A DNA stretch of 55,000 nt from Terriglobia bacterium (GTDB lineage Bacteria > Acidobacteriota > Vicinamibacteria > Vicinamibacterales > CAVVIG01), in assembly GCA_020073005.1 (NCBI GenBank), contig JAIQFX010000018.1:1-55000 (forward strand), written 5' to 3'. A program made the translations under genes and the position numbers. The notes beneath the pieces were generated by a model. The model did no database searches and was not told the origin of the DNA. It saw nothing but the letters and a program-made list of their open reading frames with translations. Of the stretch, positions 16,911-39,980 are shown one piece after another (position 1 is the first letter of the stretch; each line of letters begins with the position of its first letter).

Positions 16911-18056
16911 GTGAGCAACGAACGACGATCAACGCAGAAACCGCGGAACCCGCAGAGCGATCTTTTCCTATTCCCTTCTCTGCGTGTTCTGCGAGTTCTG
17001 CGTTCCATCGTCGTTCTTCTCCTCGTCGCGACCCCGGCGGCCGCGCATCCTGTTCCGTTCACGTATCTCGACCTGCGGCTGGGCACGGGCGCGATCGAAG
17101 GATCGCTCGTCGCGCACATGTACGATCTCGGCCACGATCTGAAAGTCGATCCGGCCGATCGCCTGCTCGATCCCGCGATCGCGGCGCCGTACGCGACGGC
17201 GATCGCGAATCTCTTCACGAGCCGTCTCACCGTGACGGCCGACGGCCGCACGCTGACGCCGCAGTGGTCGCAGCTCGACGTGCTGGCGGACCGGCAGTCG
17301 CTCCGCATGCACCTGCGCTATGCGCTCGACTCGACGCCTGGCACGATCAGCGTGACCGCATCGCTCTTTCCCTACGATCCGTATCACCAGACATTTCTCA
17401 ACGTGTACGAGGGCGCGGCGCTGACCCAGGCGATCCTCGACAGCGGCCACCCGCGCTTCGACTACTACGCCGGCACGCGGCAGGGCGCGCTCGCCGTCGC
17501 GCGCACCTTCGTCCCGCTCGGCGTCCGGCACGTCCTCACCGGCGCCGACCATCTGGTCTTTCTCGCCGGACTGCTGCTGCTCGGCGCCAGCGGACGCAAG
17601 CTTCTCGCGCTGGTGGCCGCTTTCACGGCCGCGCACGCCTTGACGTTGACGCTGGCGTCGTTCGGTATCATCATCCCGGCGGCGCGGTTGATCGACCCGG
17701 CCCTCGCGCTGAGCATCGTCTATCTGGGCGCGGACACTCTGCTGATGCGCGGCGGAAAGGACGTCCGCGTCTGGATCGCCGGCGCATTCGGCGGGATTCA
17801 CGGGTTCGGCGTCGCGGGCGTGATGCGCGAAATGGATCTGCCGGTGCGGGCGCTCGGCTGGTCGCTCGGCTCGTTTACGGCAGGCGCCGCGGCCGCGCTC
17901 CTGGCCGGCGGCGCCGTCATCACGTGGCTGGTCGCCGGCCTGCGCGCGCAGAGCGACGCGCTCGGTCAGCGGCTGGCGTTCGCCGGATCGATCGTCGTGA
18001 TCGTCGCCGGCACGTTCTGGTTCGTGCAAAGAGTCTTCTTTCCGACGGGGATTTGA
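16911..18056 (+). CDS. HupE/UreJ-like membrane protein with repeat-derived N-terminus
   Basis: A 381-residue protein. An extracytoplasmic domain (PVPFTYLDLRLGTGAIEG onward) precedes a C-terminal HupE/UreJ-type bundle with GVRHVLTGADHLVFLAGLLL, ALTLTLASFGII and GGIHGFGVAGVM; the conserved His residues in these segments may bind metal. HupE/UreJ proteins are linked to nickel or cobalt import, so metal transport is plausible. The first 45 residues are a signal sequence whose codons are supplied by a family B repeat (16921-17015); LRVLRVLRSIVVLLLVATP gives the hydrophobic core. The GTG start follows from the need to include it. No hydrogenase or urease gene is nearby. Confidence 0.82.
   Translation: MSNERRSTQKPRNPQSDLFLFPSLRVLRVLRSIVVLLLVATPAAAHPVPFTYLDLRLGTGAIEGSLVAHMYDLGHDLKVDPADRLLDPAIAAPYATAIANLFTSRLTVTADGRTLTPQWSQLDVLADRQSLRMHLRYALDSTPGTISVTASLFPYDPYHQTFLNVYEGAALTQAILDSGHPRFDYYAGTRQGALAVARTFVPLGVRHVLTGADHLVFLAGLLLLGASGRKLLALVAAFTAAHALTLTLASFGIIIPAARLIDPALALSIVYLGADTLLMRGGKDVRVWIAGAFGGIHGFGVAGVMREMDLPVRALGWSLGSFTAGAAAALLAGGAVITWLVAGLRAQSDALGQRLAFAGSIVVIVAGTFWFVQRVFFPTGI
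16921..17015. repeat. Family B palindromic repeat inside the HupE-like gene (B2)
   Basis: Perfect 9-base outer arms (AACGACGAT and ATCGTCGTT) enclose CAACGCAGAAACCGCGGAAC and a right half CTGCGTGTTCTGCGAGTTCT. The whole element is open in the reading frame and encodes residues about 4-35 of the membrane protein, including much of its signal peptide. Confidence 0.85.
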
Positions 18057-18086
18057 GGGCACGGTGGCGGGTGGCTGGAAGAGCGT

Positions 18087-18117
18087 CATGTAGGGCAGGT
18101 CCCTTCGGACCCGCCTG
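18087..18117. repeat. Family C hairpin in the MBL gene leader
   Basis: CATGTAGGGCAGGTCCCTTC followed by GGACCCGCCTG; second copy at 13464. The hairpin (GGGTCC-type stem) ends about five bases before the ribosome-binding site GGGAGGA of the MBL gene, where it could affect translation. Confidence 0.7.
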
Positions 18118-18127
18118 GGAGGATCAG

Positions 18128-19033
18128 ATGAAGCGTCTTTACGTGTTGGGAATGTTGATCGCGATCGGCGCGGCGTCTATCGGCGTGCGCGCGTACCAGC
18201 AGCCGGCGCAGAACGCGCCGAAAGTCATCGACGTCGACAAGGTGAAGGACAACCTGTTCGTCCTCAAGGGCGGCGGCGGCAACACGGCCGTCTTCGTGAC
18301 GGCGACCGGCGTCGTCGTCGTCGATGCCAAGAACCCGGGCTGGGGCCAGCCGATCCTGGACAAGATCAAGACGCTGACCAACAAGCCCGTGACGATGCTC
18401 ATCAACACGCACACGCATGGCGACCATGTCAGCGGCAACGTCGAGTTCCCGGCGACGATCGACGTCGTGACGCAGGTGAACACGAAAGCCAACATGGAGA
18501 AGATGGACATCTTCAAGCAGAACAACAACCGCGGCATGGCGAAGCGGACGTTCAAGGACAAGATGACCATCGGCAAGGGCGCGGACCAGATCGACCTCTA
18601 TTACTTCGGGCCGGGCCACACCAATGGCGATGCGATTGCCGTGTTCCCCGCGCTGCGCACCGCGCACATCGGCGATCTGTTCGCCGGCAAGAACCTGCCG
18701 CTGGTCGACGCCGACAACGGCGGCAGCGTGCTGCACTATCACGAGACCCTGAACAAGGTCCACGCGGGCATCAAGAACGTCGACACGCTGATCAACGGCC
18801 ACAGCAATACGACGACGACGTGGGCCGATCTGCAGACGTTCGCGGACTTCAACAAGGACTTCCTGACGTGGGCGCAGGGCGCGCTGAAGTCCGGCAAGTC
18901 GGCCAAGGACGCGGCGGGCGACTGGAAGCTGCCGGCGAAGTACGAAGCGCTGGGCTACTCGGGCGCCGTGGCGCCGCTGTTCGGCGGCGTCGAGGGACGG
19001 CTGAACCGGCTGGCCGCGGAGATGAAGAAGTAG
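18128..19033 (+). CDS. Exported metallo-beta-lactamase-fold hydrolase
   Basis: A 301-residue MBL-fold enzyme with an N-terminal signal sequence (YVLGMLIAIGAASIGVRA). Metal ligands are in TNTHTHGDH-like INTHTHGDHVSG (about residues 92-103), the later His in GPGHTNGD (about 164), Asp in HIGDLF (about 183) and NGHSN (about 225). This is a complete zinc-hydrolase set. Related exported MBL proteins are common next to amidohydrolases, but the substrate is unknown and beta-lactam hydrolysis should not be assumed. A good GGGAGG site precedes the ATG. The next gene is a decayed tandem copy. Confidence 0.88.
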   Translation: MKRLYVLGMLIAIGAASIGVRAYQQPAQNAPKVIDVDKVKDNLFVLKGGGGNTAVFVTATGVVVVDAKNPGWGQPILDKIKTLTNKPVTMLINTHTHGDHVSGNVEFPATIDVVTQVNTKANMEKMDIFKQNNNRGMAKRTFKDKMTIGKGADQIDLYYFGPGHTNGDAIAVFPALRTAHIGDLFAGKNLPLVDADNGGSVLHYHETLNKVHAGIKNVDTLINGHSNTTTTWADLQTFADFNKDFLTWAQGALKSGKSAKDAAGDWKLPAKYEALGYSGAVAPLFGGVEGRLNRLAAEMKK

Positions 19034-19042
19034 GAGATTCCA

Positions 19043-19665
19043 ATGAAGCGCGTGCACGTGCTCGGCGTCTTGATCGCGATTGGGCGCAACGTCGATGGGC
19101 GTGCGCGCGTTCCAGCAGCCGCCGGCGGCGCAGGGACCGAAGATCGTCCAGGCGCAGAAGATCAAGGACAACCTCTACATGCTGACCGGTGACGGCGGCG
19201 GCGGCAACACCGCCTCTACATCGGCGCGACCGGCGTCACCGTCGTCGCCGCGAAGAACCCGGGCTGGGGCACGCCGATTCTCAACAAGATCAAGGAGCTG
19301 ACGCCGAAGCCGGTCACGCTTCTGATCAACACGCACACGCACGGCGATCACGTGAGCGGCAACGTGGAATTCCCGGCGACGGTGTGGAGATCGGCGACTC
19401 GCTCGACAAGGCGCACAAGGGCATCAAGAACGTCGACCAGATCATCACCGGCCACAGCACCGTGATGACGTGGGCGGACCTCGCCGAGTACGCGCAGTTC
19501 AACGAGGACTTTCTGCGCGACGTGCAGGCCGCGCTGAAAGCCGGCAAGAGCGCGGACGATGTCGCGGCCAGCTGGAAGCCGGCGGACGAGTACAAGGGCT
19601 ACACTGTCGCCGACGCGCGGCTGAAGACGAACGTCGCGGCGGTGATGAACGAGCTCAAGGAGTAA
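19043..19665 (+). pseudogene. Decayed tandem copy of the MBL-fold gene
   Basis: The DNA begins with an ATG and reads like the upstream gene (MKRVHVLGVLIAI; QQPPAAQGPKIVQAQKIKDN; NPGWGTPILNKIKEL; INTHTHGDHVSGNVEFPAT). It has at least three lesions: one extra G in the run at 19082-19084, one base lost near 19213, and an internal deletion near 19380. The deletion removes the segment matching residues 111 to about 203 of the intact copy, including two metal ligands. The end (HKGIKNVDQIITGHSTVMTW to ELKE) is in a third frame. Multiple independent lesions make sequencing error unlikely. It is a true pseudogene created by tandem duplication. Confidence 0.92.
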
Positions 19666-19677
19666 CCGCGAGCTCTC

Positions 19678-22164
19678 TCATTCGGAACGGAGTGCGTCGA
19701 GCGGCGCGACGCGCGTCGCCCGGCGCGCGGGCAGGTACGACGCGAGCATCGCCGCTGTTGCGAGGACCGCGGCCGCGCCCGTCAGCGCCATCGGATCGAA
19801 CGGGCTGACCTGATACAGCAGACCGCTGACCAGCTTGCCGAGGCCCGCCGCCAGCGGCAATCCGATCGCCACGCCTGCAATCGTCGACCGCAGTCCTTCG
19901 CGCACCATCAGCCGCTTCACGTCGCCGCTCGTCGCGCCGAGCGCGATGCGGATGCCGATCTCGCGCGTGCGGCGCGCGACGTCGTACGCCTTCAAGCCGT
20001 AGACGCCGATGGTCGCGAGCAGCAGCGCGAGCACGCCGAACGCGCTGAAGAGTGTGGCCGCCGCGCGCACGCTCCACTCCGTGAGGCTGCGGTACCGGTG
20101 ATCGGCCATGGTCTTCGCCGAGAGGATCGGCAACCGCGCGTCGAGGCTCTGCAACTCGCGCCGCAGCGTCGCCAGCATCGCGGCGTCGGGGACGCCGGCC
20201 GCGGTGCGCACGTGCAGCGTCATCATCGCGCGGAACATCGACCCGCTCGGCACGAACACGTGCGGCTTGGGCTCGATGTCGAACATGTCGTGCTTCATTT
20301 CCGACACGACGCCGACGACCGTGCGCGTCTGAGCCGGTTCGCCTTCACGACCGCCCACCAGGATCTGCTGGTCGAGCGGATCGCGATCGGCGAACAGCTT
20401 GCGCGCCAGCGGGCGATCGATGATCACGGACTTCGCCGTCGTCCCGAGTTCTTCTTCCGCGCGCGTGAACTCGCGGCCGCGGAGCACGTGCATGCCGAGC
20501 GTCTCGAAGTACTCCGATCCGACGATGTTGAAATCCGCGGCCACGGGATCGTCCGCGGGCTTGAGACGGATCGGCCGTCCTTCCTCGAATTCGCCGAACG
20601 GCACGATCGACGCCACGCTCGCGTGCTCGACGCCTGGAATCGACCGCACGCGTTCCAGCGCGGAGCGGTACAGGCTGGTGGTCCGCGCGGCGTCGTAGCC
20701 GGCGAGACTCGGATCCAGCGAGACGATCAGGTGACGATCGATGGCGAACCCCGGGTCGGCCTGACCCGCCGTGATCGCGGAGCGAACGAAGAGGCCGCCG
20801 GCCGCGACGAGCGCGAGCGAGACGGCGAGCTGGCCGACGACGAGCACCGGTGCGGTGCCGAACCGCCGCGAGAGGCGCGCCGTCGATCCGAGTTCGCCCT
20901 TCAGATCGCCCTGAACCGTCGGCCGTGATAACGACCATGCGGGACCGAGCGCGAAGCACACCGTGCTGAGGATCGCGAAGCCGGCCGACGCCGCGATCAT
21001 GCGCGCGGACGACTCGACCACGAGCTCGATGCCGAGCGGCAGGACGCTCGACAGCCACGCCGAGAGCGCGCCCGTCGCCCACCAGCCAAGGACAAGGCCG
21101 GCGGCCCCGCCGGCAGTCGAGAGCGTGAAGCCTTCGACGAGCAACTGCTGCACGATGCGCGCGCGTCCGCTGCCGAGCGCCTGGCGGATCGCGATTTCCT
21201 TCCGCCGCGCCGCGCCGCGCGCGAGCAGCAGGTTCGCCAGGTTCAGGCACGCGACGACGAGCACGAGCGCGGCCATGAACATCAACAGCACCCCGACAGC
21301 GCTGATCGGGGCGTCGCCCTGCGGCTTCGAGCTGACGCTCATCCGCGGCAGGCCGCTGAGCACGAACGTCTGATCCTTGTCTGTCCCCGGATATTCGGCG
21401 TCGAGCTGCCGGCCGAACGCGTCGAGCGCCTTCTCGGCCGCCTCGCGCGTCACGCCCGGCCGCAGCGCCGCGGCGAGATTCAGCGCGTAGTGGGCCCTAT
21501 CGGTCAGGCCCGTCGCGCGCTGCTTGAACATCTCGTTGACGACGATGTCGAAGCTGCCGAGCGGAAACCACCACTCCGGCGAGAGCAGCGTCATCGTCCC
21601 CGCGAAGCCGCGGGGCGTGACCCCGATCACCGTGTAGTCGGCGCCGTTGGCGCGGATGGTGCTGCCGATGAAAGCCGGATCGAAGCCACCGCGCCGCCAG
21701 ACGGCATACGACGCGATCGCGAGGCGCGCGTTGGCGCCGGGCCGCTCCTCGTCCGGCGTGAACGCGCGACCGGCCGCCATCCTCACGCCGAGCGTGCTGA
21801 AGTAGTTGGCGGACACAATGGCGGCGAATGTCTGTTTCGGGATGCCGTTCGACTGACTGTCGCTGATGCCGACCGTCGAGAACGTGTGGGCCATCACGCT
21901 CTCGAACACGTCCGACCGCGATCGCAGGTCGAGGTACGCCGGGTAGGAGAAGTCGCGGTAGTGATCCGGCTTGGTGCGGTCGCGGCTGAAGATGCCGACG
22001 AGCTGATCGATGCGTCCGGGCCGAGGCTGCAACACCAGCGCGTTCGCCAGCGAGAAGACCGCGGTGTTCGCGCCGATGCCGAGCGCTAAGACAAGGATCG
22101 CGACAGACGTGAACCCGGGCGTCCGCCGGAGAAGCCGAAGGCTGTGCCGGAAGTCCTGGAGCAT
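19678..22164 (-). CDS. ADOP-type (MacB/FtsX) ABC transporter permease
   Basis: An 828-residue permease of the same type as the one at 13537. Segments are FTSVAILVLALGIGANTAVF (anchor), YPAYLDLRSRSDVFESVMAH and IGVTPRGFAGTMTLLSPEWW (periplasmic core), VLLMFMAALVLVVACLNLAN and neighbours (first FtsX block), then a second periplasmic part and LFSAFGVLALLLATIGVYGL, RRTREIGIRIALGATSGDVK and YLPARRATRVAPLDALRSE (second block). No ATPase gene adjoins it. It converges on the MBL pseudogene. Substrate unknown. Confidence 0.9.
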   Translation of the reverse strand: MLQDFRHSLRLLRRTPGFTSVAILVLALGIGANTAVFSLANALVLQPRPGRIDQLVGIFSRDRTKPDHYRDFSYPAYLDLRSRSDVFESVMAHTFSTVGISDSQSNGIPKQTFAAIVSANYFSTLGVRMAAGRAFTPDEERPGANARLAIASYAVWRRGGFDPAFIGSTIRANGADYTVIGVTPRGFAGTMTLLSPEWWFPLGSFDIVVNEMFKQRATGLTDRAHYALNLAAALRPGVTREAAEKALDAFGRQLDAEYPGTDKDQTFVLSGLPRMSVSSKPQGDAPISAVGVLLMFMAALVLVVACLNLANLLLARGAARRKEIAIRQALGSGRARIVQQLLVEGFTLSTAGGAAGLVLGWWATGALSAWLSSVLPLGIELVVESSARMIAASAGFAILSTVCFALGPAWSLSRPTVQGDLKGELGSTARLSRRFGTAPVLVVGQLAVSLALVAAGGLFVRSAITAGQADPGFAIDRHLIVSLDPSLAGYDAARTTSLYRSALERVRSIPGVEHASVASIVPFGEFEEGRPIRLKPADDPVAADFNIVGSEYFETLGMHVLRGREFTRAEEELGTTAKSVIIDRPLARKLFADRDPLDQQILVGGREGEPAQTRTVVGVVSEMKHDMFDIEPKPHVFVPSGSMFRAMMTLHVRTAAGVPDAAMLATLRRELQSLDARLPILSAKTMADHRYRSLTEWSVRAAATLFSAFGVLALLLATIGVYGLKAYDVARRTREIGIRIALGATSGDVKRLMVREGLRSTIAGVAIGLPLAAGLGKLVSGLLYQVSPFDPMALTGAAAVLATAAMLASYLPARRATRVAPLDALRSE

Positions 22165-22222
22165 GCTTACGTGAGACGAGAACCCCCGGCCGGAAGTTAC
22201 GTTCCTTTCTGGCTTCTGCCTT

Positions 22223-22852
22223 CTAACGTCCCACTTTGAAAGCGACAGCAGCCGCGGTCTTGTCCCACATCATGACCAGCTTGCCGCCGGCGTCGCTCAT
22301 GTCGGTGAACTCCCACGACATCTCCTCGACCGAGAACGGCAGCGTGGTGACCGTCATCGGCGCGCGGACCACATCCTTATCCGATGTATAGCCGTAGGCG
22401 CCCCAGATTTCCGCGGTGTTCTTCGGGTCGTATTTCGGCTGCGCCTTCCAGTTCGAGACGATCAGCGTCCAGTTGTCCGGCTTGAGGTCGATGAACACCG
22501 TGTACGTGCCCGGCGCGACCGTCTTGCCGTTGATGACGAGCGGCACTTCCGTCTTCAGCTGCGTCGAGTAGTTCGCGCCGGCTCGCCAGACGGGCGCGTC
22601 GGGATTCGCGACCTTGCCGTAGTTCGCGCCTGTGCCGCCGAAGACGTCGCGGCCGCGCTTGATCGGCCGGCCGTACGTAATTTCGATCCACTTGCCGCCC
22701 TTGTAGACCGGCTCCGCGCCGCTCAAATCGTATTTGCCGCCGACCTGCGCGGCGGAACTTCCGGCCGGGCTCGCGGGCTTGCCGCCCTGGGCCAGGATCA
22801 ATGCGCTCAAACCCAATGCGATTGCACTGCTAAGAATCACGCTGCGGATCAT
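22223..22852 (-). CDS. Exported DUF2911 protein
   Basis: A 209-residue protein with a signal sequence (SVILSSAIALGLSALILAQG) and a DUF2911 body: ITYGRPIKRGRDVFGG, NPDAPVWRAGANYSTQLKTE, VAPGTYTVFIDLKPDNWTLI and a C-terminal MSWEFTDMSDAGGKLVMMW. The family is common in Acidobacteriota and Bacteroidota and has no known reaction. The ATG is chosen because GGAG lies eight bases before it. It is divergent from the kinase gene with only 36 bases between the starts, so the two promoters must overlap. Confidence 0.85.
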   Translation of the reverse strand: MIRSVILSSAIALGLSALILAQGGKPASPAGSSAAQVGGKYDLSGAEPVYKGGKWIEITYGRPIKRGRDVFGGTGANYGKVANPDAPVWRAGANYSTQLKTEVPLVINGKTVAPGTYTVFIDLKPDNWTLIVSNWKAQPKYDPKNTAEIWGAYGYTSDKDVVRAPMTVTTLPFSVEEMSWEFTDMSDAGGKLVMMWDKTAAAVAFKVGR

Positions 22853-22888
22853 ACGTTTCGCTCCATGTGTATCCATTAGAATCCGACC

Positions 22889-25525: not shown

Positions 25526-25577
25526 AGAGTACGGAGGCCTCTTCACTTTTCAGTTTTCACTTTTCTCTTTTCAGTTT
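25501..25577. repeat. Family F TTTTCAGTTTTC repeat between convergent genes
   Basis: AGAGAGAACACTGAAGAG and then CTTCACTTTTCAGTTTTCAC and TTTTCTCTTTTCAGTTTCC form a loose inverted repeat. The kinase TGA (25523-25525) and the HrpB TGA (25557-25559) both lie in it. Similar tracts occur at 29696-29711 and 33388-33425. Confidence 0.75.
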
Positions 25578-27932: not shown

Positions 27933-27955
27933 CGGCTCCGGCCACCACGAATATC

Positions 27956-28345: not shown

Positions 28346-28374
28346 ACCCGGGCACCACACATCAGAAATTGCGT

Positions 28375-29043
28375 TCAGCGGCGGGCGCCCCAGAGGTCGG
28401 TGAGGCGCGCGTCGCGGCCGCAGCCGATACGGTACGCCTGATACGCCGCCGCATGGGTCTTGTAGTAATGCTGATGCACCGGCTCGGCCGGCCAGAACGT
28501 CGATACAGGCTGAATCTCCGTCAGCACGCGCTTGAAGCGGTGCGACGCTTCGAGCGCCGCCTTCGATCGCTCGGCGGCCGCCTTCTGCGTCTCGTCGCCA
28601 TAGAAGATGATGGGGCGGTACTGCGTGCCGAAATCGCAGAACTGACCGGCGGCCGTCGTCGGATCGGTGTTGTGCCAGTAGGCGTCGAGCAGCGCGTCGT
28701 ACGCGATCTTCTTCGGGTCGTAGACGACGCGGACCGATTCAGCGTGACCGGTGATGCCGGCCTCGACCTGCTCGTAGCTCGGACGCTTCGCCGTCCCGCC
28801 CGCATAGCCCGTCGTCACCGAGACGACGCCCGGCAGTTCGTCGAAGACGTGCTCCATGCTCCAGAAACAGCCGCCGGCGAAGATCGCTTCGCGTGTGTCC
28901 TGCGGCGCCGCACTTATCCGCGCCGCCTGTACGAAGAAAAGGAACGCAGAGACCGCGGAGACCGCAGAGAGTAGGAATGTTGATCTTACCCAGCCCACCC
29001 TGCGGTCTCCGCGATCGCTGCGTTCCATCTTCGTCAGCTTCAT
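28375..29043 (-). CDS. msrA: Peptide-methionine (S)-S-oxide reductase MsrA, exported form
   Basis: MsrA reduces methionine-S-sulfoxide in proteins. The catalytic Cys is in IFAGGCFWSMEHVFDELPGV, followed by VTTGYAGGTAKRPSYEQV, GHAESVRVVYDPKKI and QHYYKTHAAAYQAYR. Length and motifs are normal from residue 50 on. The first 47 residues form a secretion-signal-like segment (STFLLSAVSAVSAFLFF then AARISAAP), and most of it is encoded by a family B palindrome (28932-29033). It is probably periplasmic, unlike the second msrA directly upstream. The ATG at 29043 gives the full signal; a second in-frame ATG lies five codons in. Confidence 0.9.
   Translation of the reverse strand: MKLTKMERSDRGDRRVGWVRSTFLLSAVSAVSAFLFFVQAARISAAPQDTREAIFAGGCFWSMEHVFDELPGVVSVTTGYAGGTAKRPSYEQVEAGITGHAESVRVVYDPKKIAYDALLDAYWHNTDPTTAAGQFCDFGTQYRPIIFYGDETQKAAAERSKAALEASHRFKRVLTEIQPVSTFWPAEPVHQHYYKTHAAAYQAYRIGCGRDARLTDLWGARR
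28932..29033. repeat. Family B palindromic repeat inside msrA (B3)
   Basis: CGAAGAAAAGGAACGCAGAG with CCGCGGAGACCGCAG on the left and CTGCGGTCTCCGCGATCGCT with GCGTTCCATCTTCG on the right: an inverted repeat of about 100 bases. It is fully open in the msrA frame and encodes roughly residues 4-37. Confidence 0.87.
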
Positions 29044-29055
29044 ATTCTTCGTCGG

Positions 29056-29697
29056 TCAGACCGTTGTCGCGACTCCCACGGGACAGGTCACGCCCGTGCC
29101 GCCGAGGCCGCAGTAGCCGTCGGGATTCTTCGCGAGGTACTGCTGGTGGTAGTCCTCGGCGTAGAAGAACTCGGGCGCCGGAAGAATCTCCGTCGTGATC
29201 GCGCGGTAGCCCGCGGCCGTCAGCTTTTCCTGAAAGACCGCTTTCGATCGCTCCGCCGCCCGCTGCTGGTTCCCGTCGAAGCAGTAGATGCCCGAGCGGT
29301 ACTGCGTGCCGGCGTCGTTGCCCTGCCGCATGCCCTGCGTCGGATCGTGATTCTCCCAGAACACTTTCAGCAGCGCGTCGTACGAAACCCGTTTCGGATC
29401 GAACACGACGAGGACGACTTCGTTGTGGCCGGTCATGCCGGTGCAGACTTCGCGGTACGTCGGGTTCGGCGTGATCCCAGCCGCGTAGCCGACCGCCGTG
29501 CTGTAGACGCCCTCGAGCGACCAGAACTTTTTCTCTGCGCCCCAGAAGCAGCCCATGCCGACCATCGCTCGCGCGAGACCGTCGGGAAACGGCGCGACGA
29601 TTCTGTTTCTATTGACGAAGTGCGTTTCAGGAACGGACATCGGTGTCGCCCGGCCCGGAAGCGCATCGGCTCTTGACGGGAGGGTCAGTGGTTTCAT
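29056..29697 (-). CDS. msrA: Peptide-methionine (S)-S-oxide reductase MsrA, cytoplasmic form
   Basis: A second MsrA, 213 residues. [20 protein letters not shown] carries the catalytic Cys; [39 protein letters not shown] and [20 protein letters not shown] with its C-terminal Cys are the E. coli-type features. No signal peptide is seen; the N-terminus ([19 protein letters not shown]) resembles cytoplasmic MsrA. The ATG overlaps the stop of the VOC remnant by four bases. It probably shares a message with the exported MsrA 12 bases downstream. Confidence 0.93.
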
Positions 29698-30035: not shown

Positions 30036-30044
30036 GGGCGCACC

Positions 30045-30374
30045 TTACGGCGCCACGTGCGCGCGGATCTGGCGGTTCAGCCGGTGAATCTGGCGCCGCG
30101 CGACCTTGAGCGTGCCGGAGTCGTGCGCCTCGACTGCCGCGTCGCGTTTCTTCTTCAGCTCGCGCATCTGCGCTTTGATCCCGGGCTTGTCGATGCCCAC
30201 CACGTCATGATGTTCGTGGATGGCCACGCCGAGCGCCTTGCACAGCGCGGGCAGCAGGTGCTCCTTGTTCATCTGCGAGAAGCCCTGGACCGCCTCCTGG
30301 TTCTCGGCGCCCTTGGCCAGCTCGCGCAATTCCTGAATGGTCTTCTCCTTCAGCTCGTGATAGCTGTACGCCAT
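30045..30374 (-). CDS. Small Rho_N-like domain protein
   Basis: A 109-residue protein. The N-terminus, YHELKEKTIQELRELAKG, followed by FSQMNKEHLLPALCKALGV, resembles the Rho N-terminal/SAP-like helical module that binds nucleic acid. The C-terminal half is basic and helical (GIKAQMRELKKKRDAAVEAH; ARRQIHRLNRQIRAH). The ATG at 30374 has a GGGAGG site eight bases before it. The function is unknown; nucleic-acid binding is a reasonable guess. Confidence 0.65.
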   Translation of the reverse strand: MAYSYHELKEKTIQELRELAKGAENQEAVQGFSQMNKEHLLPALCKALGVAIHEHHDVVGIDKPGIKAQMRELKKKRDAAVEAHDSGTLKVARRQIHRLNRQIRAHVAP

Positions 30375-30526
30375 GAATTTCGCCTCCCGTGAAACCGCCA
30401 GTATAACGCTCCCCGCCGGAATGCGGCCGATCGTCGAGGTGCGCATCTCGCCGGACGGTGAACGCGTGGCTCATGTCCGGTCGACGCCGTCGGTAGCGAA
30501 GAACGGGCACGGCTGGATCGCGTAGG

Positions 30527-32250: not shown

Positions 32251-32352
32251 TGGCCGTGGGGTGCGAGGGTTGGGACAGACCGACGTCTCCGCCGCCCGGA
32301 CGCTTGAACATTGTCTTTCGACCCCACCGCGCTTCGTCAATCGGCGCGCAGA

Positions 32353-33378
32353 TCATTTGAAAATGCTCTTGGGCATCCTCACGTGGACGCCGTGGTTCGG
32401 TTTGTCGACGAGCTGCGTGACGGCGACGTTGCCGGCGAGGCTGACGAGCTGATAGGCCTGCTGTTTCGACATCTTCCGCGTGGCGGCGATGAAGTCCACC
32501 ATCTCCTGAATCGCGATGGTCGTCGCCTTCGCGAGATCCGGATCGAAGCCCATGGAGATGAAATCGGTCGCGGTTTCCGCGCGCGGGTAGTTGAGCGTCA
32601 TCCCCTTGCGCACCGTGAGCTGCAGCCGTCCGCGGAGCGACGTCTCGATCGCCGTCTGATCGACTTCGCCGTCGCCCTGCGCGGCGTGGCCGTCGCCGAT
32701 CTCGAAGAGCGCGCCCGGCGCGAACACCGGAATGTAGATCGTGCTGCCGGCGACGAGCTCCTTGTTGTCCATGTTGCCGGCGTGGCGGCCCGGCGGATTG
32801 CTGCTGACGCGTCCGAGCTCCGGCGCCGGCGCGACGCCCATGCTGCCGTAGAACGGCTTGAGCGGAATGACGATGCCCGGCAGGAATTCCGCGGTCATGT
32901 TCTTGCGATCGAGCGTGATGATCTTCGACGGCGTCCCGCGCTCGCAGTTCTCTGGCACGAACCCGCTGCAGCCGTTGTAGCCGTAGTCGATCGGCAGATC
33001 GATCGACAGGATCTTCACCTCGAGCGCGTCGCCCGGCATCGCGCCGTCGACGTACACCGGCCCGGTGAGGATGTGGCCGCCGGGCCCGCGCCGATCGCCG
33101 GTGACCTCGGTCACGATCGACTTGAGCGACGCCTGAATCTTGTCGTCGGCCACGCCCGCGCGCGACAGGCCGGTCGGACTGTTCGTGAGCAGCGTGTCGA
33201 CGTCGATGATGTCGCCCGACGCGATGCGCAGCGCCGGCTTCGCGTCCGCCCAGTAGTAGCCGTACGCGACCGTGTTCGGCGTCGCCTCGAGCCGGTGCGT
33301 CTTCGGCGCTTGCCCGGCGAGCGCGACGGTCAGCGCGATGGCCGCAAGAGGGGTAAACAGAGCGATGCGTCTTTTCAT
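32353..33378 (-). CDS. Exported acetamidase/formamidase-family protein
   Basis: A 341-residue FmdA/AmdA-family hydrolase with a signal peptide (LFTPLAAIALTVALAGQ). Family blocks include GHILTGPVYVDGAMPGDALE, EVKILSIDLPIDYGYNG, RHAGNMDNKELVAGSTIYIP and EIGDGHAAQGDGEV, the last containing the typical acidic/His metal region. Cytoplasmic relatives hydrolyse formamide or acetamide; this one is exported, and the substrate is not known. The start ATG is followed by basic residues, as expected of a signal. It is divergent from the DUF3089 gene across a family F repeat. Confidence 0.88.
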   Translation of the reverse strand: MKRRIALFTPLAAIALTVALAGQAPKTHRLEATPNTVAYGYYWADAKPALRIASGDIIDVDTLLTNSPTGLSRAGVADDKIQASLKSIVTEVTGDRRGPGGHILTGPVYVDGAMPGDALEVKILSIDLPIDYGYNGCSGFVPENCERGTPSKIITLDRKNMTAEFLPGIVIPLKPFYGSMGVAPAPELGRVSSNPPGRHAGNMDNKELVAGSTIYIPVFAPGALFEIGDGHAAQGDGEVDQTAIETSLRGRLQLTVRKGMTLNYPRAETATDFISMGFDPDLAKATTIAIQEMVDFIAATRKMSKQQAYQLVSLAGNVAVTQLVDKPNHGVHVRMPKSIFK

Positions 33379-33387
33379 GACCAGGCT

Positions 33388-33425
33388 CTCAACTTTTCAG
33401 TGTTCTCTTTTCAGTTTTCAGTTTC
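33388..33425. repeat. Family F TTTTCAGTTTTC repeat between divergent genes
   Basis: CAACTTTTCAGTGTTCTCTT followed by TTCAGTTTTCAGTTTCAGG, in the gap between the formamidase and DUF3089 genes. Promoters of both genes must lie around it. Confidence 0.7.
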
Positions 33426-33474
33426 AGGTTTTTTCGACCGCCTGAGTATAATCCGCCGCACAGGAGGGTCCGTG

Positions 33475-34707
33475 GTGAACGTCAAACAGGTGCTGCTGTG
33501 TGTCGTCGTGGCCGCAAGTCTGTCGGCAGGAACCGGAATGGTCTCGGCGCAGCAACCCGCGACACCGCCGCCCGCGCAGCCGCAGGCCGCGCCCGCGCCA
33601 CCTCCCTCGCCCAACGACTACAGCGATCCCAGGACCTGGCTCTGCAAACCCGGCCGCAAGGGAGATGCCTGCGACGTGGACCTCGCCACGACGATCGTCG
33701 CGGCCGATGGGACGCTGACGAAGGAAACGTCGAAGGCGAATCCGAACCCGCCGATCGACTGCTTCTACGTCTACCCGACCATCTCCACCGATCGCACGCC
33801 GAACAGCGACATGAATCCTGATCCGGCGGAGATGAACGTCGTCCGCCAGCAGTTCGCGCGGTTCGCGTCGCGGTGCAGGACCTACGCGCCGATGTACCGG
33901 CAGGTGACGCTGATGGGCCTGCAGCGCGTGCTCGCGCAGAACGCCGGCGGAAGTCCGCTGGCGAAGGGCGTGCAGTACGACGATGTGAAGGACGCGTGGA
34001 ATTACTATCTGCAGCACGACAACAACGGCCGGGGCGTCGTGCTCGTCGGGCACTCGCAGGGATCGTTCATCCTCAACCGCCTCATCAGCGAAGAGATCGA
34101 CGGCAAGCCCGTGCAGTCGCGGTTGGTCTCGGCGATTCTCCTCGGCACGGTCATCGCGGTGCCCAAGGGCAAGGACGTCGGCGGCACGTTCCAGCACGTG
34201 CCGCTCTGCAAGTCGGCGACGCAGACCGGCTGCGTCATCACGTACGCGTCGTTCCGATCGACGGTGAAGCCGCCAGCGAACACGCTCTTCGGCAAGGTGA
34301 GCGAGGCCGGCATGGAAGCCGCGTGCACGAATCCCGCCGCGCTCGGCGGCGGCAGCGGCGCGCTGCACGCGTATCTCGACGCGACCGGCAAGACGATCAC
34401 GAGCACGCCGAAGATGCAGCCGTGGGTGACAGGGCCGGCCGATCCGCCGATCGACACGCCGTGGGTCAGTGTGCCTGGCTTGCTGACGTCGCAGTGCGCG
34501 ACGAACGAGAACGCGACCTACCTCGAAGTCACCGTGCACGGCGATCCCAGCGATCCACGCGTCGACGACATCACCGGCGACATCGGGAATCCGCCGAACG
34601 TGCTCGCGAACTGGGGGCTGCACCTGATCGACGTCAATCTCTCGATGGGCAACCTCGTCGACATCGTCGGCCAGCAGGCCAAGGCGTACGCGGCGAAGAA
34701 GCGTTAG
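33475..34707 (+). CDS. Exported DUF3089 alpha/beta-hydrolase-like protein
   Basis: A 410-residue protein with a signal peptide (VLLCVVVAASLSAGTGMVSA) and a proline-rich linker (PPPAQPQAAPAPPPSP). The body has DPRTWLCKPG, DCFYVYPTISTDRTPNSDM, RTYAPMYRQVTL and a nucleophile elbow, VVLVGHSQGSFILNRLI, as in DUF3089 proteins. It is probably a lipase or esterase; the substrate is unknown. GGAGGG six bases before supports the second of two adjacent GTG codons as start. Its stop overlaps the stop of the convergent MetX-like gene. Confidence 0.86.
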   Translation: MNVKQVLLCVVVAASLSAGTGMVSAQQPATPPPAQPQAAPAPPPSPNDYSDPRTWLCKPGRKGDACDVDLATTIVAADGTLTKETSKANPNPPIDCFYVYPTISTDRTPNSDMNPDPAEMNVVRQQFARFASRCRTYAPMYRQVTLMGLQRVLAQNAGGSPLAKGVQYDDVKDAWNYYLQHDNNGRGVVLVGHSQGSFILNRLISEEIDGKPVQSRLVSAILLGTVIAVPKGKDVGGTFQHVPLCKSATQTGCVITYASFRSTVKPPANTLFGKVSEAGMEAACTNPAALGGGSGALHAYLDATGKTITSTPKMQPWVTGPADPPIDTPWVSVPGLLTSQCATNENATYLEVTVHGDPSDPRVDDITGDIGNPPNVLANWGLHLIDVNLSMGNLVDIVGQQAKAYAAKKR

Positions 34708-35780
34708 CGCAGGAACGCGGCGATCTCTTTGTTGATGAACGCCGCGTCGGTCGGATTGCCGCCGCCGCCGGCCGTGTGTCCCCACAGCGACGGAATCGGG
34801 ACGAACTTCACGTTCGTCAGAAACGTGCGCTCGGACTCCGCGTCCGTCACGGGAAAGTACAGATCGGTCGCGCCGGGCATATAAAGCACGCGCGCGTTGA
34901 TCGACGCGAGCGCGTGCTCGATGTTGCCGTCGAAACCCCTGGTCTTGCTGATGTCGTGATCCTGCCAGGTGTGCGCGAGCTGCACGGCGTCGTTGAGGTT
35001 GCGTGAGTGCCAGCTGCGGACGCTGTCGGCGAGCACCTGCTCGACGCTCGCCGAGCGCGGCTTGAAGAGCTCCTGCCGCCACCACTCCTGCGAGTACACC
35101 CACGCCGACCAGTGCTGCGCCCACGCCTTGATGCCGTCCTCGGGCAGCTCGGTGTAGTCGCCGCCGTTCCATCGCGGATCCGCGGTCAGCGCGCTGATGG
35201 CGCTCTCGAGACGGACGCGGCCGTGGCCATAGGTCTTGGCGGTGCCGCAGAGCGCGACAATCGCGTCGACCTCAGCCGGGTGACTCGCGGCCCACTGAAA
35301 CGCCTGCTGCGCGCCCATCGAGAAACCGATCACGGCGCGCAGGTGCTGCACGCCCAGACCATTGAGCACCTTGCGTGACGCCTCGACGTCATCTCGAATG
35401 GCGACGCGCGGAAAGCGAGGTCCGTCGAACGGCGCGGGCGTGTTGCTCGGCGACGACGACGCGCTGCTGCCGAACATCTCCGTCGCGACGATGAAGTACT
35501 TCGCGGGGTCGAGCGCGCGATCCGGACCGACGAGGAACTGATAGCTCAGCGCGCGGCCGCCGTACCACGACGGCAGCAGGATCGCGTTATCTTTGGCGGC
35601 GTTCAGCGTGCCCCACGTGACGTACGTCACGTGCGCGTTGTCGATCGACACTCCGCTCTCGAACGTGAAGCGGCCGAGCGCGAAACTCTTGACCGTCCCG
35701 TCCTGCGCGCGCGCAAGGCCGCAGACGAGCAGAAGCGCGCTGACGATCCACAGACGGAGGTTGAAGCGCCGGACACGCAT
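34704..35780 (-). CDS. Exported alpha/beta hydrolase related to homoserine acetyltransferase
   Basis: A 358-residue protein with a signal peptide (LWIVSALLLVCGLARAQ). HVTYVTWGTLNAAKDNAILL, GGRALSYQFLVGPDRALDP and AVIGFSMGAQQAFQWAASHP (nucleophile Ser) are close to the MetX fold. ARVLYMPGATDLYFPVTDAE holds the likely acid and PSLWGHTAGGG the His. True MetX is cytoplasmic; the signal peptide argues for a secreted hydrolase instead of methionine synthesis. It lies 11 bases after the tannase-like gene and is probably co-transcribed with it. Confidence 0.85.
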   Translation of the reverse strand: MRVRRFNLRLWIVSALLLVCGLARAQDGTVKSFALGRFTFESGVSIDNAHVTYVTWGTLNAAKDNAILLPSWYGGRALSYQFLVGPDRALDPAKYFIVATEMFGSSASSSPSNTPAPFDGPRFPRVAIRDDVEASRKVLNGLGVQHLRAVIGFSMGAQQAFQWAASHPAEVDAIVALCGTAKTYGHGRVRLESAISALTADPRWNGGDYTELPEDGIKAWAQHWSAWVYSQEWWRQELFKPRSASVEQVLADSVRSWHSRNLNDAVQLAHTWQDHDISKTRGFDGNIEHALASINARVLYMPGATDLYFPVTDAESERTFLTNVKFVPIPSLWGHTAGGGGNPTDAAFINKEIAAFLR

Positions 35781-35791
35781 GGGTGGCTCTC

Positions 35792-37345
35792 CTACTTGCA
35801 CGTGAAGTTCGCGGCGTCGTTGGTGTCGCCCGAGCCCTTGTACGCCGCGATCGCCGGATACGGACACAGCGGCCGCGTGCGATCGGCGACGCCGCTATTC
35901 AGGTGCGACGCCTGAATGAGCGTGGGCGTCTTCTTCTGCTCCACCCACTGCTCGAGGACCGTCACGCTGTCGAACGTGCTCGTGCCGTCGCCGCCGGCGC
36001 AGTGCGCCATGCCCGGCACCATGAACAGCCGAATCGAGTCCGCGGCCTTGTCCGCGCCGCCCGACGCCTTCGCGACGCTCGAGTAGTAGTTGATGCTGTT
36101 GCGCGGAGCGATCAGCTGATCGCTCCAGCCGTGATACATCAGCAGCCTGCCGCCGCGGCTGAAGAACGGTTTCAGGTTCGGATCGGTCGCGTTCAGCAGG
36201 ACATCGTCCTGCTCGTCGATCATCGCCACGTCTTTGTCGAAGTCGAGCGTCTTGAAGTCCCAGTCAGGATTCTTGAACACGTCGTACTTGAAGAACGTGT
36301 CCGCGATGCTCAGCGGCGCGGGTCCCGCCAGCCCGGCCCAGCCGAGCTCGCTGCCGGGTTCCAGTCCGGGAAACAGCACCGCGCCCTTCGAGTTTTTCGC
36401 GGGGCTGTAGATCTTCCGGGCCGTCTCCACCTGCGGCGCCGTCAGACACGCCGGCGTATCGTCGCCGGCGCACTGGATCGTCTTCGGATCGAAATGGCAC
36501 TTCCCCGGATCTTCGATCACGCCGTCCTTGACGCCGTCGATCATGTCGCACGCGTCCAGCGCCGCCTTGTGGACGGCCGCGTACTTCTCGCGCGGGATCA
36601 GGCTCGCGGGATCCTTCAGCGACGCCTGCGCGACCCAGATGCTGTGCGTCAGCAGGTGCGTCATGTAGTTCGCCGGCGCGCCCGCGATGATGCCGTCGTA
36701 GTCGGACGGAAACGTCTGCGCCTCTTTCAAGCCCTGACGGCCGCCGGTCGAGCAGCCGTTCCAGTACGACAACGTTGGCGCGCTGCCGTAGTACCTGTTC
36801 TCGATGAGCTTGGCCATCACGGTCATCTCGTGAACGGCGCGATACGCGAAGTCGACGAGCTTCTCGGGATGATCGAACGCGAAGCTGGCATCGCCGCCGT
36901 TGCCGGCGTGACCGGTGTCGGTCGACGCAGTCGCGTAGCCGCGGCGAATCGCGGCGGCCATCGCGGGAAAGGAAATCGCGCCGGCCCATCCGCCGTTGCC
37001 GACCGCTTCGAACTTTCCGTTCCAGCCGGACGCCGGCATCCAGACTTCAATCTTGATGTCGGAGTCACTCGACGGTTCCAGCATCGCCGTGACGCGACAG
37101 AATGCCGGCAGATCGCGAAACAGCTGCGCTGCCGCAGGCGGCGCGGGAGGCCCTTGGGGGGCCGTCGCGCCGGATGCGACAGGAGGCGCGAAGGCCCCGG
37201 CGTCGACGACTCGCGCGGACGTGATCGTCGTGTCACGGAGCATCATCGACTTGAGGCTCTCGCACGACGCGGCCGCGGTCAGAGTGCGGGCGCCGACCAT
37301 CGTTGCGAGGAGAATCGCGCACAGTCCAGCTGCGAGAATCTTCAC
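35792..37345 (-). CDS. Exported tannase/feruloyl-esterase-family protein
   Basis: A 517-residue protein with a signal peptide (ILAAGLCAILLATMVGARTL). The family elbow GCSTGGRQGLKEAQTFPSDY contains the nucleophile Ser, with YDGIIAGAPANYMTHL after it; GGRLLMYHGWSDQLIAP and VPGMAHCAGGDG supply the acid and His. The paired Cys residues next to the Ser and His (CSTGG, HCAGG) are a tannase-family trait. It would cleave esters of plant phenolics. GTG at 37345 has GGAGG before it; a longer form would start inside a family E repeat. It forms a likely operon with the MetX-like hydrolase. Confidence 0.88.
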   Translation of the reverse strand: MKILAAGLCAILLATMVGARTLTAAASCESLKSMMLRDTTITSARVVDAGAFAPPVASGATAPQGPPAPPAAAQLFRDLPAFCRVTAMLEPSSDSDIKIEVWMPASGWNGKFEAVGNGGWAGAISFPAMAAAIRRGYATASTDTGHAGNGGDASFAFDHPEKLVDFAYRAVHEMTVMAKLIENRYYGSAPTLSYWNGCSTGGRQGLKEAQTFPSDYDGIIAGAPANYMTHLLTHSIWVAQASLKDPASLIPREKYAAVHKAALDACDMIDGVKDGVIEDPGKCHFDPKTIQCAGDDTPACLTAPQVETARKIYSPAKNSKGAVLFPGLEPGSELGWAGLAGPAPLSIADTFFKYDVFKNPDWDFKTLDFDKDVAMIDEQDDVLLNATDPNLKPFFSRGGRLLMYHGWSDQLIAPRNSINYYSSVAKASGGADKAADSIRLFMVPGMAHCAGGDGTSTFDSVTVLEQWVEQKKTPTLIQASHLNSGVADRTRPLCPYPAIAAYKGSGDTNDAANFTCK

Positions 37346-37356
37346 GGCCGCCTCCA

Positions 37357-37383
37357 CGGTCCGGCTGAAGCCGGACGCCACTA
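37357..37383. repeat. Family E hairpin repeat
   Basis: GGTCCGGCTGAAGCCGGACG and then CCACTAC; second copy at 46482-46501 (CATCCGGCCGAAGCCGGACG). The trmO stop codon (37381-37383) is at its edge. Confidence 0.75.
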
Positions 37384-37830
37384 CAGCGTCTTCCGCTGCT
37401 CCGCCTCAGCCAGCCAGCCCCGTCGCAGTTGTTCCGCAGGCACGCTCGACAGATACGGCTTGATGTCCAGGATCGGCGTGCCGTCGAGCATGTCCACGCC
37501 GCGAACGAACAGTTTCGGTCCCTCGCGGCGGAGCAATTCTACGATCGTCAGGCCGATCGCGTTCGGCCGCCGCGGCGATCGTGTTGCGAAAACGCCGTGC
37601 GGCTTGGTGTCGGTCGGCGGGCACGCGGTCAAATCGTAACCGGTCACGCGATCGAACAGCCAGATCACGTAGAGATGCGAGAAGCCTTCGATGTCCGCGA
37701 GACCCGCCTCGAATTCAGGCGAAATCTCCAGCACGCCCTCCGCCCGATGCTCCGCGCCGCAGCCTTTGGGAATCTGGGACGTCTCCGCGTACGGACTTCG
37801 GACGACGCCGATCGCCTGCATCGTGACCAT
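37381..37830 (-). CDS. trmO: tRNA t6A37 methyltransferase TrmO (TsaA family)
   Basis: A 149-residue protein of the TsaA/TrmO beta-barrel family, which N6-methylates threonylcarbamoyl-A37 in tRNA. Motifs are IGVVRSPYAETSQIPKGCGA, GFSHLYVIWLF, HGVFATRSPRRPNAIGLTIV and VRGVDMLDGTPILDIKPYL. Length equals the conserved TsaA domain only. It stands upstream of the tannase-like gene on the same strand, separated by a family E hairpin. Confidence 0.9.
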   Translation of the reverse strand: MVTMQAIGVVRSPYAETSQIPKGCGAEHRAEGVLEISPEFEAGLADIEGFSHLYVIWLFDRVTGYDLTACPPTDTKPHGVFATRSPRRPNAIGLTIVELLRREGPKLFVRGVDMLDGTPILDIKPYLSSVPAEQLRRGWLAEAEQRKTL

Positions 37831-37846
37831 GGCGTCATTATCGATC

Positions 37847-37873
37847 AGGCTCGCCTGAAAGGCTCGCGCGACA
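37847..37873. repeat. Family A motif
   Basis: AGGCTCGCCTGAAAGGCTCG followed by CGCGACA, between trmO and the VWFA gene end. Same core as at 3760 and 13435. Confidence 0.8.
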
Positions 37874-37877
37874 ACGT

Positions 37878-39980
37878 CTACTTGCGCACGTACAGCTGGA
37901 AGCGCGGGAACGTGAACGCGGCGGCCGCGTCGTCGACGATGTTGATCTGGCAGGTGTAGAGGCCGGGCGGCAGCGATGACGCGGGCACGTCGAACTGAAA
38001 CACCGCCGTCTTCTTGTCCGATCCGCCGAGCTCCGTCGTCTGGACGACGGGCGTCTCGAACGCGCGGACCTTGCCGCGGAAGAACGCGATGCTCGTCATC
38101 ACCTTGACCGGTTGAGCGGGCTCGTAGACCTCGTAATAGAAGTAGAGATGCTGCCCGGCCGAGACGACGTGCGTCACGTTCGGCACGAGCTCGCGGCCGT
38201 CGCGCACGAGCGGGTTGTCGTTGCCCTTCCGCGCGTTCGGCGTCAGCTGCGTGCCCACGACGACCGAGCTCAGCTTGACGGTGTTCGCCGCATTCTTCTT
38301 CACGTCCGGAACGACCACGTCGGTCTCGTACGATCCGAACGTGCCGATCGCGTTCTCGCGCACGACGACTTTGACGTGATACTTGCCCGGCGGCATCTCG
38401 AATCCCGTTTCGTACTGCACGGTCTTCTTCTTCAGATCGTCTGCAGCATCGGTCGACAGCTTCACCGTGTCGCGGATGCGGCCGACCGGCCGGCGCTGCT
38501 CGTCGCGCACGAGACCGAGCACGTCGATCGACGCCTTGGCCTTGTCGGTCGTCTTCGTGATCGGCAGCTGATACCCGGGCACGACGACCGACAGCGGGAC
38601 GTAGTAGCGGTTGTCGCCGAGGCGGAAGTACGACGTGGAGACGAACGCGCTGAGATCGGTCGCGGACAGATCCGAAATCAGCTGATCCTGCAGTTGCTCC
38701 TCGCGGTCGTCCTTCGTCGAGTGCGCGAAGTCGCGCGGCGCATAGTAGCCGGAGCGATACTCGACCTTCAGATCACTGCGCTTCAGTTTCACGCGAATGC
38801 GCCTGAATCGGCCGTCGCGACTGGGATTGCTGCTGCTGTAGCCCAGCACGTAGTACGCCGACGTGTCGTTCACGACTTTGTCGAACACCTGGCCGAACGT
38901 GTTGGAATCGAAGAACGCCCGCCCGCCGGTGTCCTCCGCCATTGTCGTCAGCGTGTCCTGCGACGCCGCCTGACTGCTGACCTGGTTGCGCTGCGACGCG
39001 CCCGAGAACGTCGACGTCCCGCGGCGGCTGCCCTGCGTCGCGTCGCCGCCGGGCACCATCGCCTGCAGGCCGCGCATGTCGGCCGCGTAGATCGAGACGT
39101 TCGCTCGATTCGCGCGATCCACGGTGCGGCGCAGCTGGACCTGGTTGTCCTGTTGCTGCGTCATGCCGCTGCTGAAGTAGATGACGGACTTCTTCTGCTC
39201 GATGCCGGACAGCTCGTCGGCGAGCGTCTGCAGCGCATCGAGCCGGCGATCGGTGTTGAAGATGTTGAACTCCGTGTCGTCGGCCGCAAACGCGCTGCCG
39301 TTGTCGGCGGTGTCCTCGACGTCGCCGTTGCCGCCGGCCTCGAAGCCGGCGCCGTTCACGCCGCCGAAGCCGTCGATGACCGCGGCCAGCTGCTCGCGGT
39401 CGGCGGTGAAGTCCTGCACGACGTCCAGCGACGTGGAAAACGACGCGACGGCGATCAGATCCGCCGGCGACAGCTTCGTGTCAAGGTAGTCGTGCGCGGC
39501 CTTGACCGCGCGCTCGAGCTCCTCCGGCTGCATCGAGCTGAGGTCGAAGAACAGGACGATGAGCCGGCGTCCGCGCATGTCGATCTTCGCGGGTGCCGGC
39601 GCTTGCGGCTGTGGTCGGGCGAGCCTTTCAGGCGAGCGTGAATTCGGCGGCAGAATCACCGCGGTCTCGCTCGGCTGAAAGCCTCGCGCTACGTCCGCAG
39701 CGGCATCCAGCTTGTCGAGTTCTTCGAAGTCGAAGCTCGTGATCGTCTGCGGCTTGTCGTCTTCGGTGACCGTGAAGTCGTCGCGCGTCAGCGTCCGCAC
39801 GACCGCGCCCGACTTGTCGCGCACGACGACGTTCACGAGCACGAGCTCGGTGCCGGAGCGAAAGACCTGCCGCGGCTGCGCCGGCGTCTGCGCCTGCGAC
39901 ACGATCGACAACAGGAGAACGAAGAGCAGGACGTTTAACCGCGGAGATCGCAAAGAACGCAGAGAGAGATAGGTGCTCAT
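37878..39980 (-). CDS. Exported acidobacterial VWFA-related protein with repeat-derived segments
   Basis: A 700-residue exported protein. FRSGTELVLVNVVVRDKSGA and TRDDFTVTEDDKPQTI form the beta domain that precedes the VWA domain in acidobacterial VWFA-related proteins. The VWA domain starts at GRRLIVLFFDLSSM; its MIDAS is imperfect (DLSSM, where DxSxS is usual). KSVIYFSSGMTQQ and YYVLGYSSSNPSRDGRFRRI follow, then a C-terminal beta region. Role is unknown, perhaps adhesion or a partner of the receptor. Its ATG overlaps the TonB-gene stop (TGATG). The signal peptide is partly encoded by family B, and residues 97-122 by family A repeats. Confidence 0.87.
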   Translation of the reverse strand: MSTYLSLRSLRSPRLNVLLFVLLLSIVSQAQTPAQPRQVFRSGTELVLVNVVVRDKSGAVVRTLTRDDFTVTEDDKPQTITSFDFEELDKLDAAADVARGFQPSETAVILPPNSRSPERLARPQPQAPAPAKIDMRGRRLIVLFFDLSSMQPEELERAVKAAHDYLDTKLSPADLIAVASFSTSLDVVQDFTADREQLAAVIDGFGGVNGAGFEAGGNGDVEDTADNGSAFAADDTEFNIFNTDRRLDALQTLADELSGIEQKKSVIYFSSGMTQQQDNQVQLRRTVDRANRANVSIYAADMRGLQAMVPGGDATQGSRRGTSTFSGASQRNQVSSQAASQDTLTTMAEDTGGRAFFDSNTFGQVFDKVVNDTSAYYVLGYSSSNPSRDGRFRRIRVKLKRSDLKVEYRSGYYAPRDFAHSTKDDREEQLQDQLISDLSATDLSAFVSTSYFRLGDNRYYVPLSVVVPGYQLPITKTTDKAKASIDVLGLVRDEQRRPVGRIRDTVKLSTDAADDLKKKTVQYETGFEMPPGKYHVKVVVRENAIGTFGSYETDVVVPDVKKNAANTVKLSSVVVGTQLTPNARKGNDNPLVRDGRELVPNVTHVVSAGQHLYFYYEVYEPAQPVKVMTSIAFFRGKVRAFETPVVQTTELGGSDKKTAVFQFDVPASSLPPGLYTCQINIVDDAAAAFTFPRFQLYVRK
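39618..39693. repeat. Family A inverted pair inside the VWFA gene
   Basis: GGCGAGCCTTTCAGGCGAGC at 39618 and CGCTCGGCTGAAAGCCTCGC with GCTACG ending at 39693 face each other. The segment is read in frame as VARGFQPSETAVIL to SPERLARPQ, a linker between the N-terminal beta domain and the VWA domain. Confidence 0.85.
39930..39967. repeat. Family B half-copy inside the VWFA signal peptide (B4)
   Basis: ACGTTTAACCGCGGAGATCG with CAAAGAACGCAGAG matches one arm of the intergenic copy at 16157-16240 in 30 of 34 positions. On the coding strand it gives LRSLRSPRLNV in the signal peptide of the VWFA protein. Confidence 0.85.

Follow-up and report, generated by a model that had tools for sequence, protein, structure and literature searches.

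A dispersed palindromic repeat lies across the starts of three unrelated genes for predicted exported proteins in the window analysed here, the first 55,000 nucleotides (nt) of contig JAIQFX010000018.1 from a Terriglobia bacterium (assembly GCA_020073005.1). Judged from sequence comparison, the repeat quite probably invaded export signals that already existed, became part of the predicted signal peptides, and was tolerated and then trimmed. Signal peptides of the ordinary kind are present in orthologues that lack the repeat, which argues that existing signals were invaded and that export was not created by the insertion; the residues of the repeat show no clear constraint, and tolerance followed by trimming therefore fits best. 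A preceding sequence-only reading of this DNA had placed four copies in the window and had quoted the peptides they encode in a HupE-like protein, the protein MsrA-1 and a VWFA protein. A covariance model and an arm pattern find all four copies where it put them, the translations contain the quoted peptides at the three N-termini, and the overlap with predicted signal peptides recurs at ten further places in the genome. Signal peptides evolve fast and rarely reveal their origin. Here many export signals of a single genome are traceable to one repeat; some orthologues are without it, some have the complete palindrome and some a single arm. The origin of new signal-peptide sequence thereby becomes a testable question.

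Architecture and distribution of the repeat

The repeat is a palindrome in which two 27-nt arms, each made of three 9-nt units CGCxGAGNN, flank a loop of 11 to about 50 nt. In one of the arms the middle unit is often CGCTGAG, and the element would then have a direction. The arms are free of stops in 5.7 of six frames on average, and the three frames of the leucine-rich strand read as LCG, SAV or LRS repeats. In the genome that carries the window (G000; 5.86 Mb in 179 contigs), a covariance model built from 16 copies returned 76 matches representing 41 distinct places, mostly as both strands of one palindrome. With 14 further one-arm places hand-picked from the list of arm-pattern matches, and with the weak model match C18:81894 judged to be chance and dropped, the family comprises about 54 places. 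The arm pattern with at most one mismatch matched 37+32 times, against 4+8 for a reversed control, so that some one-mismatch matches must be chance; those judged to be so, or resembling ordinary coding sequence, were excluded from the counts. Within the window, a two-unit pattern (16 nt, at most three mismatches) gave 14 matches where 1.77 were expected and where 100 shuffles reached six at most, and the three-unit arm gave 12 against 1.71 expected, five of them outside the four copies and each of these with three mismatches.

The two-armed copies of the window have hairpin z scores of -5.0, -9.4 and -7.3; the one-arm copy forms no hairpin (z 0.08). Pair by pair, covariation of the hairpin is weak: 84.5% of cells are paired versus 83.2% after shuffling (equalled in 53 of 500), the covariation score was matched by 2 of 500 shuffles, and further pair types are rarer than in shuffles. 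No Rfam family matched at gathering score between window positions 15500 and 40500, and a known RNA family is rejected as the identity of the repeat there. A lag-9 score did not distinguish the N-termini of 38 window genes from the gene middles, and the two free bases of each 9-nt unit probably blur it.

Among relatives, 26 of 40 genomes carry matches (E <= 0.001, G000 counted), as do 48 of 198 genomes sampled across the phylum under stricter filters. Exact arms occur, among the matches listed, in records titled cyanobacteria, planctomycetes, deltaproteobacteria, verrucomicrobia and others. The copies seen in G015 and G019 (L145-L204) are mostly intergenic, with nearly invariant arm ends, as if they had spread more recently than those of G000. 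In some copies the edge (for example window 29026-29028) reads GCGTTCCAT or GCGTTCAT, which yields an ATG on the opposite strand, so that a copy can supply its own start codon.

Repeat-derived segments of predicted signal peptides

Where the repeat lies and whether its frame is open can be read directly from the genome; genes were called with a simple gene finder, and signal peptides were scored with a home-made heuristic. All three window proteins pass this score for the features of a Sec signal (basic n-region, hydrophobic core and cleavage motif) and are predicted to be exported. The repeat covers residues 6-32 of the HupE-like protein, in which the right arm encodes LRVLRVLRS directly ahead of the hydrophobic core. 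In MsrA-1 an arm encodes SAVSAVSAFLFF, the core of the predicted signal peptide according to translation and score; of its two candidate starts, ATG 29028, at the repeat's edge, is likelier than ATG 29043. In the VWFA protein the product of the single arm precedes the hydrophobic core; the family it matches, TIGR03436 (acidobact_VWFA), suggests a host in the Acidobacteriota. A second MsrA paralogue (29056-29697) adjoins the first, and only the first has the N-terminal repeat.

Across the genome, 20 places were classed as open into the downstream gene, and by score 11 of them fall in a predicted signal peptide. Inspection by eye added C50:22824, whose GTG start lies in the arm itself, and C175:2988, for a total of 13 among about 54 places. 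The copies use every frame of the leucine strand (LRx, SAx and LCx). Among the downstream proteins are VWA-domain, outer-membrane receptor, M28 peptidase, NHL and CarboxypepD_reg proteins, an amidohydrolase with PD40 repeats, and some without a family match; the families matched by many of them are usually exported. One-arm copies run in the leucine sense in all five of their signal peptides and in the Ala-Glu sense in both of their soluble-protein interiors (p 0.048). Around gene starts in G000, 13 of 18 exported genes have the repeat within the frame, versus none of 14 others (p 3e-5); the figures are 11 of 16 and none of 14 if the rows of a single table are taken (p 9e-5). The corresponding figures for G001 are 10 of 14 and 1 of 15 (p 0.0005), the one non-exported exception being a membrane protein; exported status was assigned by score and by eye, as for two Tat-like genes. 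The author roughly estimates that signal-peptide DNA makes up 2.7% of the genome; by that measure 13 of 54 is high (p 2e-9), but the excess can come from a preference of insertion and from copies having been lost at other coding sites. In other genomes, copies fall in signal peptides by score in 8 of 37 cases in G001 (10 with two added by eye), in 2 of the 6 classified among about 26 copies in G002, and in 5 of the 45 best-scoring listed copies of G019, one or two of these being doubtful.

Orthologues with, without and with half the repeat

Same-genus relatives keep the repeat in place at five loci (HupE, MsrA, the C106 VWA protein, the C119 protein and the C77 receptor). Length differences between anchors are multiples of three at seven of seven loci within open reading frames versus two of seven intergenic loci (one-sided p 0.010, two-sided 0.021). 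The seven comprise MsrA, HupE, C119 and C106 in signal peptides and C60, C29 and alanine racemase in protein interiors; the test excluded the HupE pair G000/G002 and the loci C77:23041 and C18:28618, where a left arm is absent or lies in a different frame. At the C77 locus the internal gaps are not multiples of three.

At HupE, where 19 of the 22 genomes with matches were read and three partial ones dropped, arms occupy the same position in seven N-termini (of which one is decayed, one partial and one one-armed), two are ambiguous, and the remaining orthologues have plain signals such as MKRLAGLGLFAALASAAPAAAHPVPF. The arms of MsrA are clear in three, decayed in three and absent from two of the eight best full-length matches among 24 genomes with matches, a partial match in G012 having been dropped; the other matches are more distant and mostly seem to represent the second paralogue. 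For VWFA, 13 of 19 match rows were read, one of them not anchored and one masked, and the nearest orthologue (G004, 72% identity) has a plain signal peptide and no repeat. Half-copies are also found in place. The HupE protein of G002 lacks the left arm, and its signal peptide begins with the coding arm. At C18:28618 in G000 the left arm is likewise missing and the signal begins with the Leu-rich arm; the G002 counterpart is a full copy. Loss of the arm appears the likelier direction, as opposed to gain.

Copies within other proteins

The sequence-only reading had placed one copy between genes and three across gene starts. The overlap with three starts stands, but the repeat is not restricted to such positions: numerous copies stand between genes, and about nine are in-frame segments of other proteins. 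These are a DNA polymerase III alpha-type gene, alanine racemase, a ComEC-like competence protein, a radical SAM protein, spermidine synthase-like and TPR membrane proteins and a phospholipid methyltransferase-like protein, with one-arm copies in a methyltransferase and an FAD-binding protein; C118:32717 and C118:33428 were excluded from the clear interior cases. In alanine racemase, residues 209-235 occupy a spot where a solved racemase has three residues. Among the 25 genomes read for this loop (L071:2371-2452; L440-L464), of which two lacked the motif used, full repeats occur in G000, G001 and G007; elsewhere, across different genera, the loop holds remnants, other inserts or, in 8 of 25 genomes, nothing.

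Table 1. Repeat copies of the window, their host genes and adjoining features
Feature	Position	Strand	Basis
Two-armed copy, intergenic between convergent genes	16157-16236	none	Covariance model, 72.4 bits; hairpin z -5.0
Neighbours of the intergenic copy	13537-16149; 16258-16884	+; -	Gene finder
HupE/UreJ-like gene	16911-18056	+	PF13795, E 8e-28
Predicted signal peptide of HupE-like protein	16911-17045	+	GTG 16911 to ...VATPAAA, then HPVPFTYL; translation, heuristic score
Two-armed copy in HupE-like N-terminus	16928-17007	+	Covariance model, 71.5 bits; inverted repeat 85% complementary
Arms of the HupE-like copy	16931-16957; 16978-17004	+	
MsrA-1 gene	28375-29043	-	PF01625, E 5e-58
Two-armed copy in MsrA-1 N-terminus	28940-29027	-	Covariance model, 71.8 bits; inverted repeat 93% complementary
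VWFA gene	37878-39980	-	TIGR03436 (acidobact_VWFA), E 9e-86
Single arm in VWFA signal peptide (LRSLRSPR)	39940-39964	-	Arm pattern, one mismatch; translation

Interpretation and alternatives

The proposed sequence of events begins with a dispersed palindrome, mobile at least formerly, that would have inserted into and beside genes. Arms nearly free of stops in all six frames would allow it to reside in reading frames, and on the leucine strand LRxLRxLR may supply a basic n-region and SAxSAxSA or LCxLCxLC parts of a hydrophobic core. In exported proteins the repeat would thereby have replaced the n-region or the core, with the cleavage region and the mature protein retained. Since signal peptides constrain composition over sequence, copies there may have persisted; some lineages would have lost the hydrophilic left arm, and their signal would open with the Leu-rich arm. 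The preceding suggestion that the palindrome is tolerated for what it encodes fits better than its alternative of a ready-made export signal, given the open frames and the composition of the leucine strand.

Several observations pull the other way. Exported genes are only moderately over-represented beside copies (18 of 32 versus 36.5%, p 0.018). The signal-peptide score is home-made and partly driven by the repeat itself, and several cases were judged by eye, including two in G001 and the Tat-like genes. None of the 23 best-scoring listed copies of G015 lies in a signal peptide, and among 80 named loci from other taxa only 5 of 105 arms do, most of them doubtful. Finally, substitutions in in-frame copies fall 51/51/66 by codon position over 250 codons, and the residues inside the repeat look nearly free of selection, with no clear sign of it.

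The alternative that survives best, though it is unlikely, is retention of the repeat chiefly for its RNA hairpin, which would adjust translation or mRNA stability in genes for exported proteins, the peptide being incidental. The hairpins at the HupE and MsrA-1 starts are strong, and mRNA roles for hairpins of other repeats are reviewed in PMC2229807. The one-arm copies are harder to accommodate, as those in the signal peptides of VWFA and at C18:28618, C55:9948, C175:2988 and C140:44757 are incapable of a hairpin, and intact copies also stand upstream of non-exported genes.

It is less likely still that the copies are untranslated leaders, with true starts downstream and the N-termini as annotation artefacts. 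Di Nocera et al. (PMC3733652) argue as much for most N-terminal repetitive extragenic palindromic (REP) sequences of other bacteria, and in G000 14 non-exported genes and five exported genes with a signal of their own do begin downstream of a copy. Misannotated starts are nevertheless rejected for the window genes. In the HupE-like gene, GTG 16911 is the sole in-frame ATG, GTG or TTG between the preceding stop and the mature part, ahead of the conserved HPVPFTYLDLRL common to orthologues, and the next start (M at 17118) would cut that segment off. The upstream receptor gene ends at 39980, and its stop codon shares one base with the VWFA ATG (39980-39978). A later in-frame start in MsrA-1 would land within the conserved enzyme. 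Orthologues without the repeat, moreover, carry signal peptides at the same position. N-terminal repeats, often ascribed to start-site errors, may be coding.

That the repeat is a ready-made mobile signal peptide which turned cytoplasmic proteins into exported ones, as the sequence-only reading had offered, would suit its presence in many unrelated genes and in all three leucine-strand frames, yet it is highly improbable, because HupE, MsrA and VWFA orthologues without the repeat carry ordinary signal peptides before the same mature region and many of the downstream proteins match families that are usually exported. Invasion of existing signals, with subsequent tolerance and trimming, is accordingly preferred.

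Relation to known repeat systems

On the evidence of sequence, the present case appears to be one of in-frame insertion by a palindromic repeat, far more regular than the few known. It differs in its many loci, known proteins, three frames, several orthologue states and one-armed forms. Use of a repeat as signal peptide, held unusual by the sequence-only reading, is indeed so, but precedents exist, the close ones found in the literature being those treated in this section. As described in PMC2759123 and PMC2229807, the enterobacterial elements RU-1/RU-2 provide repeat-derived signal peptides in Yersinia YPO1552 and others, with mention of additional loci that have predicted signal or membrane segments. 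Those accounts concern few loci, mostly putative small proteins, as opposed to 13 places in one genome with many in known families, and, by description, they lack the three-frame, multi-state and one-armed pattern.

The Rickettsia palindromic elements (about 100-150 bp) reside in frame in protein genes whose products tolerate them, according to PMC2229807 and PMC10969869. By description they resemble the present repeat as in-frame palindromes in otherwise conserved protein genes, a situation found here in alanine racemase, DNA polymerase III alpha, the ComEC-like protein and others. They differ in host and in lacking arms of three 9-nt units, and the clear signal-peptide subset seen here has no counterpart in the consulted text of those two papers.

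CGTC-tagged REPs (Di Nocera et al. 2013, PMC3733652) have stems of 8-9 bp and loops of 4-5 nt, and those seen at N-termini were mostly deemed extragenic. Shared features are a palindrome, here with CGTC near part of its ends, some intragenic copies including one in DNA polymerase, and no copy adjoining the tyrosine transposase genes checked. The arms of 27 nt and loops of 11 to about 50 nt depart from those dimensions. The CGTC begins 3 or 4 nt beyond the arm for 31 of 69 ends in G000, 15 of 67 in G001, 35 of 90 in G019 and 17 of 46 in G015; in some copies it belongs to a longer pairing. Y1 tyrosine transposases (PF01797) match in 26 of 40 genomes, with four matches in G000, and the flanks of 20 loci, including one of the four G000 genes, contain no arm, so that membership of a REP system with its associated tyrosine transposase (REP/RAYT, or REPtron) is rejected for the loci checked.

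Other repeats of 9-nt units

A CACRRAGG-type sibling repeat was sought in the window and not found. Elsewhere, a VWFA paralogue of the same genome (L433, G000:C77:17844-19832) and L426 of G001 begin with MKPRRTRRTRRG, encoded by a different 9-nt-unit repeat, ACCACGGAGGACACGGAGGACGCGGAGG, whose Arg-rich frame forms the basic n-region. The VWFA protein L428 of G016 begins with MHRMFCVLSFVSFVSFVVAAQQ, from a third repeat of 9-nt units of TCCTTTGTG type, and that repeat constitutes nearly the entire hydrophobic core. It is possible, though tentative, that several palindromic families of 9-nt units form a standing supply of signal-peptide parts, with repeat arms repeatedly overwriting export signals and loss of the hydrophilic arm then favoured by selection; repeat turnover would then drive signal-peptide turnover in this lineage. 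Next to the copies of the palindrome at L062:3028-3113, L062:7218-7293 and L098:3050-3074 stands yet another repeat, which in frame gives SPATSPQP or SHQSPATSHQP.

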